DNA of 64,000 nt from Paenibacillus pabuli (GTDB lineage Bacteria > Bacillota > Bacilli > Paenibacillales > Paenibacillaceae): contig NZ_CP073714.1 in NCBI RefSeq assembly GCF_023101145.1, positions 2,418,001 to 2,482,000 on the forward strand, read 5' to 3'. The position numbers and the translations under genes were made by a program. The notes beneath the pieces were generated by a model. The model was not told the DNA's origin. It saw only the letters and a program-made list of their open reading frames with translations, and did no database searches. Below are positions 32,689 through 36,339 of this stretch, in pieces (within the stretch, counting starts at the first letter, position 1; the number at the start of each line of letters is the position of its first letter).

Positions 32689-34173
32689 TTAACTTCTCAA
32701 GCGATATTGGATCATCAGATAAATGCCATTCAAGAAGAAAAACAGCAAAATGTTTGGGAGAATGGCATAGCTTCCCCAGTTCACGGTCAGGCTGCTCCAC
32801 TCGTTCATCCATATCACAAATCCCGAGATCGCCCCGACCATCAGGACATGAACAGCCAAATTGCCGATGCGAATCTCTTTGAGCAAGCTTCTCAATCCAA
32901 TCAGATTTCCAGACATGATGATGAATTCCATCAGCACTACACCCGCCACTGCACCTTTAAGATGAAATCCATCAAGAGGGATCAGGAAGTAATGGCAGAG
33001 GGTAGCCGCAGTAATGCCGATTGCCGTTCCGATCAAACTGGTTTTTTTGTTATCCTGTGACCACAATATACTGGTGGATACCTCGCGCAAGCCGACAAGC
33101 AGCGGTATGATGCTTAACCAGCGAATCAGCTCTGCGGTTGCTGCAGAATTGAAAAAGAGCTGTGCCAGGTCGCGGTTGAAAATCCATAAAAAGGAGCTGG
33201 AGGCGATTCCCCAAATCCACACTATTTCCATTGTTAGTCGGCTTTTGTTGGCAAAATAATTATAACGAAGCTCCTGCCAGGAGAGAACAAGTTTCATGGT
33301 CAGGGTATGTGATATGGCCGCCGTTACAATTGTTGGCATATACACTACCAGCATGGCCATACCCATAAGCAGGCCGTACATTGCAGTCGCTTGTGTGGAG
33401 GTGTAGCCTGCGGTTTGCAGCCTTGACGGAATAATGACCGCATCCAGCATGTCGGAAAATGGAATCAGCAGCCGTGTGAGGGAAATAACCAGGGAGCTTT
33501 TGATAAACCAAAAGCCGTCAGCCCTCCCTGTGGGGACACAAGTATGTATTTCATTCTGTTGCCCGGCATGACGCAAAAAAAGAAGCAGGATCACAAAAGC
33601 TGCAATTCCGCCCATCGCCGTTCCAATCAAACTTCTTCCGACCGCCGCCATTACACCTTGAGGCAGCCACAGCCAGGTAATGCCTAACATCAGCCCGACA
33701 CGAACCGCTTGTTCCATTATCTCTGAGATAGCAATGGCACCATAATGTTCAAGACCTTGCAAATAGCCTCGCAGCAGGCTTAACAGAGGCACGACGAATA
33801 TGGCCAGGGACAGAGAGCGTATAAATGGCTCCAGAACAGGGTTTCCCAGCCACTTGGAAATGGTTGAAGAGTAGGCGAGTGTAAATAAACAGATCGTTCC
33901 GCCAATGAGCATCAGCAAGGCAGATAAGCGCTTGAACCAGACCCAGCCAAGCGCTGGTCTCCTCGCTGTATACATGGCAAGGGAGGTAGGAAGCCCTCCC
34001 GTAATTAACATAAGCATAAAACCGAAATAGGAATAGGCGATCTGAAATAAACCTATACCTTCAGGGCCCGCCATACGGGTAAGTATGACACGTCCAATCA
34101 GACCTATCGCTTTGACCAGAGAGACAGCACCGATGCGGATACCCGTCTGCTTGAGACCGGGAGGAATATTCAT
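32689..34173 (-). CDS. SpoVB/MurJ-like polysaccharide flippase (MOP superfamily)
   Basis: This 494-residue membrane protein, with about 14 helices, belongs to the polysaccharide transport/SpoVB group. Members flip lipid-linked sugars such as lipid II or teichoic precursors. The N-terminal motif VILTRMAGPEGIGLFQIAY is the usual SpoVB-type signature. LLRGYLQGLEHYGAIAISEI near residue 130 is the second conserved stretch. The start at 34173 is chosen for its GGAG site at eight bases; the frame opens at 34212. It follows the secreted amidase gene by 81 bases. Its role next to a sortase suggests envelope work, which is inference. Confidence 0.87.
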   Translation of the reverse strand: MNIPPGLKQTGIRIGAVSLVKAIGLIGRVILTRMAGPEGIGLFQIAYSYFGFMLMLITGGLPTSLAMYTARRPALGWVWFKRLSALLMLIGGTICLFTLAYSSTISKWLGNPVLEPFIRSLSLAIFVVPLLSLLRGYLQGLEHYGAIAISEIMEQAVRVGLMLGITWLWLPQGVMAAVGRSLIGTAMGGIAAFVILLLFLRHAGQQNEIHTCVPTGRADGFWFIKSSLVISLTRLLIPFSDMLDAVIIPSRLQTAGYTSTQATAMYGLLMGMAMLVVYMPTIVTAAISHTLTMKLVLSWQELRYNYFANKSRLTMEIVWIWGIASSSFLWIFNRDLAQLFFNSAATAELIRWLSIIPLLVGLREVSTSILWSQDNKKTSLIGTAIGITAATLCHYFLIPLDGFHLKGAVAGVVLMEFIIMSGNLIGLRSLLKEIRIGNLAVHVLMVGAISGFVIWMNEWSSLTVNWGSYAILPNILLFFFLNGIYLMIQYRLRS

Positions 34174-34254
34174 CCATTTCACTCCATCCAACACAAACAT
34201 CTTGTCCATCATTTATATGAGCCAAGGGTGTCAAGTATGTGTGTTGTGGCGTAA

Positions 34255-35352
34255 TCAGTCCTGAATATGGATGAGAATATACGACGTTTTGTTGTCCCAT
34301 CCCAGATCAAACGGGGCCTGAAAGCGGTCAGCTGTGTGAGAATTGACAAGGGGGTAGCCGCGTTGATCGAATCCGGTCACGATGGAAAAGTGATCCACAT
34401 CATTATGCATGACATGGGCAATCAGATCGCCAGCCTCCAATTTGCCTATCGCCCCATAAGGGTGAGCGGCCGTTTTTTCGACCAGTTTCGAGAACGAGTC
34501 CGTGGCGATTCTTTTGCCATACCCGGAATATATCAGGAAATTTTTGAATGCGTCCGTCTGTACCCACGTTTTGGTGCCGCCCTTGGGGAAATGATATCTC
34601 CACGGACCGCTCATGGGCAATCCGCCGCCTTCCTCCCGGTCGCCAAGCACCTGGGAAGCAAAATTGGTACAGTCGCCCCCGAGATTATTGTAATTTTTGT
34701 ATTTGGCATTATACCTGACCTTGTCATTGGTTCTCCAAGCGATTCCGGCATATTTGTTTGCATAAGCTACCGCTTGCTTTCTTTTGTACTTCTTGCCATC
34801 CTTCAGCACCGGTCGATCGGGCGGCGGAGAGGGAATTCCTTCGGCAATCAGACGAGGATTCTCTTCCAGCGGGTCCAGGTACCATTCCTTCGAGACGATC
34901 CATTGATCATGAACTTTTTTCAGCGTGACAGCATGCCATGTTCCGAGCCCGAACGAATGACTGGCTGACATTTGATCATTATAGGCGTATGTGATCTGCT
35001 GTGAATGACCCAAAGAAACGGTGGCTGTCTGATCCTTGATATGGATTTTGGAGATATGGATTTTGGACTTACAGTCGGTAATCTTCATGTTTCGATATTT
35101 GGCCCATGTATGAAGATACGTTTTGCGTTTGACTTCCATTGTGTAAGCCTGACGACTCAAAGGAGATTTAATATCATAATACTGTTCCATGTGATGATTG
35201 CGTTCTGCTAAGTAATTTGATCTTTGTGAAAAAAGATCTTCCAGATTTTTCTTGACCTCATATTCTGTTATGGAAGATGCTTCTGCTGGGCTCACTCGAT
35301 GTATAGTTATAAACAAACTGCATATCAGGAGCATAGTTATCCACTTATACAT
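34255..35352 (-). CDS. Secreted amidase-6 (Amidase_6) domain protein
   Basis: This is an exported putative cysteine amidase, possibly acting on peptidoglycan peptides. A signal peptide covers residues 1-26 (VSPAEASS). The middle ~30-160 looks like a conserved cystatin-like or NTF2-like helper region. The catalytic part has C228 in GGDCTNFASQ, H321 in HFSIVTG and the following NSHTADR, which is the Amidase_6 pattern known from B. subtilis YhbB. At 365 residues it is complete. A small 13-residue-scale repeat, SKIHISKIHI, lies at 96-105. AAGAGGAG precedes the ATG. It starts 18 bases after the sortase stop, so both are on one transcript. Confidence 0.88.
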   Translation of the reverse strand: MYKWITMLLICSLFITIHRVSPAEASSITEYEVKKNLEDLFSQRSNYLAERNHHMEQYYDIKSPLSRQAYTMEVKRKTYLHTWAKYRNMKITDCKSKIHISKIHIKDQTATVSLGHSQQITYAYNDQMSASHSFGLGTWHAVTLKKVHDQWIVSKEWYLDPLEENPRLIAEGIPSPPPDRPVLKDGKKYKRKQAVAYANKYAGIAWRTNDKVRYNAKYKNYNNLGGDCTNFASQVLGDREEGGGLPMSGPWRYHFPKGGTKTWVQTDAFKNFLIYSGYGKRIATDSFSKLVEKTAAHPYGAIGKLEAGDLIAHVMHNDVDHFSIVTGFDQRGYPLVNSHTADRFQAPFDLGWDNKTSYILIHIQD

Positions 35353-35370: not shown

Positions 35371-35985
35371 TTATTCAACCAATCGGGTATACACGATCAG
35401 GCGTTTTTCGTGTTCCTTTTTTTTGCGATCGTATTTTCCTGTACATGTGATCAGATTCAGCTGCTTTTCAGGGGTATCACCGAATATTTTCTCCAAAGGT
35501 GCTTCCTGCGTGTAATAGGATTGAACCGCCAGAACCTCATATTTGAGATATTGGTTATTCTGGTCAAACAGCAAAACAAAAGAACCCGGTTTCAGATGCT
35601 TGAGAGGGTAAAATATGGCTGGACCTGTATAGTTGTCTACATGACCCGCAACAATTGCATTTCCGTTTTCTCCAGGCAAAACTCCATCTACATATAAACC
35701 GGCCACCTCACTGGACTTGGGTACTTGCAATTGTCCATCTGCTGACAGATGAATAGGAATGATTGAAGTACTCAAATGAACCGATGGAATACACAAGCGA
35801 ACCGGCTTCTTCATGACTATGGATTGCGGAATCCTTGTCTGTATCTCGGGATCAGCACTAGTCTGATCTTTAGGAGCTGATGTTTGGAAAGCGGTCTGTT
35901 CCTTCATGTTATTTGCTGGAGATAAGATAAGGCATGCAATGATTAAAAAAATTACAATTGCGGCGAATGAAGTGTTGTTTTTCAT
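35371..35985 (-). CDS. Class F sortase
   Basis: This membrane-anchored cysteine transpeptidase has 204 residues. One N-terminal membrane helix (7-23) acts as anchor, then a ~35-residue linker leads to the beta-barrel. The catalytic triad is visible: H115 in AGHVDNYTG, C181 in LITCTG and R195 in EKRLIVYTR. The arrangement GHVDxxxGPAIF...LITCTG is that of class F sortases. Its probable substrate, a small LPKTG protein, is encoded 81 bases upstream on the same strand, and the secreted amidase follows after 18 bases. Class F enzymes are less well studied than SrtA; the acceptor here (lipid II or other amine) is unknown. Confidence 0.92.
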   Translation of the reverse strand: MKNNTSFAAIVIFLIIACLILSPANNMKEQTAFQTSAPKDQTSADPEIQTRIPQSIVMKKPVRLCIPSVHLSTSIIPIHLSADGQLQVPKSSEVAGLYVDGVLPGENGNAIVAGHVDNYTGPAIFYPLKHLKPGSFVLLFDQNNQYLKYEVLAVQSYYTQEAPLEKIFGDTPEKQLNLITCTGKYDRKKKEHEKRLIVYTRLVE

Positions 35986-36014
35986 ACGTTTCTCATCCTT
36001 AATGATAAATTGAA

Positions 36015-36059
36015 GAATAAGAGAAAAGAAAAATCGTTTTCTTTTCTCTTCTCTTATTC
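36015..36059 (-). other. AT-rich hairpin between LPKTG gene and sortase gene
   Basis: GAATAAGAGAA...AAAG on one side pairs with CTTT...TTCTCTTATTC on the other, with a short loop. It lies directly between the stop of the LPKTG gene and the sortase start. It lacks a GC stem and T tract, so it is a weak terminator at best and may instead tune relative expression or mRNA stability. Confidence 0.5.
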
Positions 36060-36066
36060 CTTTTTT

Positions 36067-36339
36067 TTACTCGCTTACGCCGCCATATCCTGTTTTAGGA
36101 AGGGCTTTTGGCTTGATGCTTTTTGCATGGATTTTGTGCTCTTTGTTGACGGATTTCTGATGTAGCTTGTGTTCCTTGCCTTTATGCGATTTCGTGTGCA
36201 CTTTGTGCTCTGCTTTGTGTTCTGCTTTGTGAGTGGATTTCTCCATTTTGTGCATCGGTTCAGTTGCGGCGGATGCAGAAGCACCGGATACAGCCAGCAT
36301 TAGACAAGCAGACAGAGAAACAATGGTTGCTTTATTCAT
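36067..36339 (-). CDS. Small His/Lys-rich secreted protein with C-terminal LPKTG and no membrane anchor
   Basis: This 90-residue precursor has a clear signal peptide (1-25, ending SASAA). The mature part of 65 residues has about 10 His and 16 Lys, arranged in HK-containing short repeats such as HKAEHKAEHK and EHKLHQK. The sortase motif LPKTG lies at 80-84, followed only by YGGVSE and the stop. A normal cell-wall sorting signal needs a hydrophobic helix and basic tail after LPXTG, and these are absent in all frames downstream. The start at 36339 follows AGGAGG by nine bases. It is the first gene of the sortase cluster and so the likely substrate. Function is unknown; metal or anionic polymer binding would fit the composition. 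Confidence 0.85.
   Translation of the reverse strand: MNKATIVSLSACLMLAVSGASASAATEPMHKMEKSTHKAEHKAEHKVHTKSHKGKEHKLHQKSVNKEHKIHAKSIKPKALPKTGYGGVSE

Follow-up and report, generated by a model that had tools for sequence, protein, structure and literature searches.

In a 64,000-nucleotide stretch of the Paenibacillus pabuli genome (contig NZ_CP073714.1, positions 2,418,001 to 2,482,000; hereafter the window), a gene for a short secreted protein ending in LPKTG-YGGVSE lies directly beside a gene for a class F-like sortase. In the standard model, a hydrophobic helix past the LPxTG motif holds sortase substrates in the membrane; here the protein stops six residues after the motif and contains no such helix. 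The same pair is found in dozens of related species of Paenibacillus, Cohnella, Fontibacillus, Brevibacillus and Aneurinibacillus, indicating that the truncation is real and conserved. Judged from sequence comparison, the two genes probably form a dedicated sorting cassette, in which a class F-like sortase would act on an anchorless PxTGxGGxS substrate and most likely transfer it to the cell wall.

The short protein and its sortase

The features that make up the pair are as follows.
36067–36339, minus strand: short secreted His/Lys-rich protein of 90 residues ending in LPKTG-YGGVSE, the proposed anchorless sortase substrate (translation, orthologs and alignment)
36067–36102, minus strand: truncated class F sorting signal LPKTGYGGVSE with its stop codon (residue conservation in 81 distinct genes)
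36265–36339, minus strand: predicted N-terminal signal peptide MNKATIVSLSACLMLAVSGASASAA (by eye: basic start, hydrophobic core, AxA site)
35371–35985, minus strand: class F-like sortase of 204 residues with an N-terminal hydrophobic anchor (Pfam Sortase, E = 3.3e-21; NCBIfam class F, E = 8.8e-38)

Translation from 36339 to 36067 yields MNKATIVSLSACLMLAVSGASASAATEPMHKM...KALPKTGYGGVSE-stop, a protein of 90 residues. An earlier note on this DNA had described an LPKTG protein that ends six residues past the motif without an anchor, and had counted 10 His and 16 Lys among 65 residues; the translation bears out both statements, the composition being that of the portion left past the predicted AxA cut. 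Its claim that no frameshifted continuation exists downstream also stands: the stop directly follows YGGVSE, a hairpin comes next, and the sortase start lies 81 nucleotides past the stop, with no hydrophobic helix. A frameshifted or read-through anchor was accordingly ruled out, given the TAA stop before the A-run and the mere 81 nucleotides to the sortase start. One hydrophobic segment hidden in another frame, FFFSLILQFI, was likewise rejected as the product of the complement arm of the stem-loop, preceded by a basic stretch. No Pfam family matches the small protein above its cut-off, and the protein lacks a relative in the PDB; matches to Gastrin, Zip and other Pfam families are low-complexity noise below their cut-offs.

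The class F sortase that the note had placed next to this gene is there, with class F as its best profile, though under the curated cut-off. The best NCBIfam profile is class F NF033748 (129.4 bits, E = 8.8e-38), followed by class E at 36.8 bits. The catalytic residues His115, Cys181 and Arg195 are invariant in an alignment of 32 rows. Judged by similarity of the sortase, the window would fall within Paenibacillus close to P. xylanivorans and P. taichungensis. An AlphaFold model shows a confident sortase fold, with a predicted local distance difference test score >90 over most of the sortase domain. Its best Foldseek matches are sortases of classes C, A, D and E (E values to 3e-10); a class F label is absent among the 50 matches listed. 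Most relatives carry a lipobox-like cysteine past the N-terminal hydrophobic stretch (21 of 39 by regular expression, about 10 more by eye), whereas the N-terminus of the window's own sortase subclade looks like a membrane helix. This cysteine is seen with soluble and anchored substrates alike and hence does not explain the soluble state. With such a cysteine, most Bacilli class F sortases (L003, L043, L034, L054, L131, L145 and others) resemble lipid-anchored sortases.

Conservation of the tail and inheritance of the pair

We compared the locus across 75 genomes of the genus and 199 of the family, 33 of the latter with the sortase and 166 without it, using a strict DNA pattern for the tail, P-K-[T/S]-G-x-G-G-x-S-[E/K/Q]. 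Short-tailed proteins beside class F sortases, which the note had proposed to seek, were found in the five genera named above. On collecting 81 distinct genes, we observed 6 residues past PxTG in 26 genes, 7 in 2, 8 in 7 and 9 in 46; tails longer than 9 residues were not seen in this soluble group, and none of the relatives restores a hydrophobic tail. The Pro, Gly, Gly-Gly and Ser of PxTGxGGxS are invariant throughout. These positions are encoded by four Pro codons, four Gly codons, two and four codons for the Gly-Gly pair, and two Ser codons. With these residues fixed in 81 genes from five genera while their codons change synonymously, decay and error are excluded, and the comparison argues that the tail is under selection.

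The remainder of the protein behaves differently. The whole protein ranges from about 61 to 114 residues, with a fast-changing, highly variable body that contains no Cys. The same tail ends proteins with three unrelated types of body. His/Lys-rich bodies, low in complexity and with a mean Lys content of 23% across bodies, occur in all five genera; Gly/Gln-rich bodies with 5–10% Lys occur in two Aneurinibacillus; and CBM9-like proteins bear the tail in G109 and G167. Comparison of these sequences thus points to the tail as a modular signal, and a His/Lys body, though the common case, is not needed.

The sortase is present in 21 of the 75 genus genomes, the window counted. A short-tailed ortholog adjoins it in the window and in 19 of the 20 other members that have it; in the remaining one (G033; L008, L025) the tail is frameshifted (LPKTWIRWRERANELG...) and the sortase gene is still open. 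Within the family sample, the pair occurs in nearly all 33 sortase genomes. The strict tail is found in 29 of these (31 with a relaxed motif) as against 1 of the 166 sortase-less genomes (Fisher's exact test, p ~2e-29, kinship ignored). Of the four sortase genomes without a match to the strict pattern, two have the relaxed tails MPQTGGGGASEWTD and MPRTGEGGASEWTD. Short tails in genomes without the sortase are chance matches only: the one in the family sample (G022) lies within no open frame of at least 45 residues, and a single further match, in the order but outside the family, runs across a stop codon. The co-occurrence statistics are inflated by kinship, and the patchy presence within the genus together with joint absences is the better argument. 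Three genus genomes without the sortase keep an amidase and a flippase gene that adjoin the pair in the window, and in all three the substrate is gone as well; the two genes therefore seem to come and go as a unit. At the comparative level, these sequences lend support to the note's suggestion that a class F sortase may accept a soluble substrate with a G-rich tail.

Two further loci differ from this pattern of intact, adjoining genes. G248 (C33) has a second substrate paralogue with the tail LPKSGFGGASEQTE (L093, from ~4501, plus strand) and no sortase within ~4.5 kb, which implies action in trans. In G065 (L019), the tail is intact, the N-terminus of the substrate (its signal peptide) is broken and the sortase is weaker by profile; this pair may be decaying.

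Anchored relatives and the proposed reaction

Class F sortases also adjoin PxTGxGG proteins in Fictibacillus, Metabacillus, Halobacillus, Pontibacillus, Shouchella, Gracilibacillus, Planomicrobium and further families of Bacilli. These substrates share the core with the soluble group, for example MPKTGMGGASDESSSNYTAGIIAAVA, and continue for 31–41 residues that include a hydrophobic helix and a basic end. They are longer proteins, DUF4397-type or of about 450 residues without a Pfam match, encoded next to a homologous sortase (L190, L202–L204, L226, L110–L139). No tail between 9 and 31 residues was found among the motif-bearing neighbours counted. With the same core and no helix, the short tail thus corresponds to a normal class F sorting signal minus its anchor. 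In a sortase tree of 51 rows, the soluble-type enzymes form one clade with a Shimodaira–Hasegawa-like approximate likelihood ratio test support of 100. The CBM9-type pair falls among the anchored types; a single soluble clade is not rejected by the approximately unbiased test (p = 0.48), and one or two origins of the soluble state are possible. Because membrane-anchored signals are general among sortases, we favour loss of the anchor over its gain, on a tree whose root was not inferred. Within the anchored-substrate group, a 434-residue frame on the minus strand of L144 has the atypical motif MPNTALAPP and ends in MPNTALAPPEKSVETGYYQAQ without a helix, an end that could be due to a frameshift.

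Among known systems, the closest in principle is AbpA with its own SrtB in oral streptococci (Liang et al. 2016, PMC4974636), likewise a short-tailed sortase substrate without an anchor. AbpA ends in LPKTS-AVK, and SrtB cleaves it between Thr and Ser in vitro, processes it into a ladder and anchors it to the wall; AbpA is also easily released into the medium (PMC4974636). SrtB, however, is a class B enzyme, whereas the window partner is class F-like by profile; moreover, AbpA is an amylase-binding adhesin with another tail and is reported only in selected oral streptococci (PMC4974636). Canonical LPXTG proteins handled by class A sortases share with the window protein the LPKTG pentapeptide and a Sec signal peptide (by eye in the latter), but the window protein has neither membrane helix nor basic tail and carries the extended GGxS motif. 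The class F sortase of Propionibacterium (Cutibacterium) acnes and SrtF1–4 of Actinoplanes belong to the same class by profile and are actinobacterial; the accessible part of PMC13251363 describes no anchorless substrate for such enzymes and reports no phenotypic change on quadruple srtF deletion in Actinoplanes. We found no description of an anchorless class F system in the open-access literature, a search outside which most subscription papers lie. As far as that literature shows, the principle shared with AbpA is not new, and the window system is a new and much wider class F variant.

We propose that Sec exports the small protein and that the membrane-tethered sortase would meet it, still nascent, close to the export site. 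The enzyme would recognise the extended motif, including the GG and Ser on the primed side; Cys181 would cleave between Thr and Gly, and the Thr carbonyl would be moved to an amine. An amine of peptidoglycan would be the likeliest acceptor, leaving a cationic protein bound to the wall; the main alternative is a Lys of another copy. Without a helix, capture would have to come from the extended motif, from proximity and from the dedication of one enzyme to one small substrate. The His/Lys body may coat the wall and there bind anionic polymers or metals. More doubtfully, the whole sortase branch in Paenibacillus, Cohnella, Brevibacillus and Aneurinibacillus, many of whose members are predicted lipoproteins, might act on soluble substrates through PxTGxGGxS, assembling tiny proteins into covalent cationic layers or Lys-linked polymers.

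Several points weigh against the cassette as proposed. The case for wall attachment is one of analogy; some other contact with the sortase could account for the conserved tail; and the product could be released or polymerised instead of wall-bound. The window sortase, at 129 bits, scores below the curated NCBIfam class F cut-off of 166 bits. This threshold is passed by none of 399 genomes sampled across the class, all 94 positives lying below it; it thus shuts out the whole Bacilli branch, and we term the enzyme class F-like for that reason. Finally, the other two pattern-negative sortase genomes, G185 and G270, fall on a long separate branch, and no soluble substrate was found near their sortases; a membrane-anchored IPKTGDG protein is encoded just upstream of the one in G185.

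Other outcomes for the small protein can be set against transfer to the wall. If a Lys of another copy attacked the Thr acyl-enzyme, the sortase would polymerise its substrate through Lys isopeptide bonds, as class C enzymes do with pilins; the resulting chains might be released or end in the wall. The Lys-rich, low-complexity bodies, the AbpA ladder made by SrtB (PMC4974636) and the intergenic hairpin, which suggests substrate in excess over enzyme, are all consistent with such chains. Nevertheless, no pilin-type acceptor motif was seen, and the Lys-poor bodies of the two Aneurinibacillus share the tail; polymerisation is the less likely outcome. It is considerably less probable that the sortase is an endopeptidase that trims the tail and thereby frees an active protein or peptide (GYGGVSE, GFGGASEQTE), for instance a signal. 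Such a peptide would be small and soluble, its sequence is the best-conserved part of the protein, and with no helix nothing keeps the protein in the membrane. Yet class F substrates with a membrane anchor conserve these residues too and yield no free peptide, so that sortase recognition explains the conservation; nor is a receptor gene linked to the loci.

Least credible of all is a decayed or artefactual tail, either a relic or a product of faulty annotation or sequencing, with the real sorting signal lost and the protein simply secreted. Single decayed cases do exist, namely the frameshifted tail of G033 and the broken N-terminus of G065, but the invariant residues with synonymous variation in 81 genes of five genera, and the absence of the substrate jointly with the sortase, already contradict this explanation.

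Sorting by a dedicated cassette remains our preferred interpretation, and it would make the small proteins candidate natural partners for class F sortases, whose physiological roles PMC13251363 describes as unknown. The system is a widespread two-gene one without an anchor, its recognition core is strongly constrained, and the anchored relatives provide a natural control group. It also supplies an extended recognition motif, and its sortase could become a tool for joining soluble proteins by way of a defined GxGGxS tail.

Neighbouring genes and the intergenic hairpin

Three further features accompany the pair in the window.
34255–35352, minus strand: secreted Amidase_6 protein, 18 nucleotides past the sortase (PF12671, 2.8e-42); accessory, in Paenibacillus-type loci only
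32689–34212, minus strand: polysaccharide-type flippase (Polysacc_synt), co-directional (PF01943, 3.9e-23); accessory, in Paenibacillus-type loci only
36009–36061, minus strand: strong stem-loop, terminator- or attenuator-like, between the substrate stop and the sortase start (fold −25.2 kcal/mol, z −4.63)

The substrate, sortase, amidase and flippase genes all run in one direction. In the genus, the amidase is found in 20 of the 21 genomes with the sortase and in 3 of the 54 others, and the flippase is a shared neighbour in 23 loci, the window included. Neither was found near the pair in Cohnella, Brevibacillus or Aneurinibacillus, and both were rejected as core parts since they are confined to Paenibacillus-type loci; the sole neighbours common to all genera are substrate and sortase. 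No phage relatives were found. The hairpin occupies the same place in most of the related loci examined (the window and L160–L201). In many loci a GGAGG lies at the substrate stop ahead of the hairpin, with the sortase ATG just past it, and folding of the hairpin might bring this ribosome site close to the sortase start.
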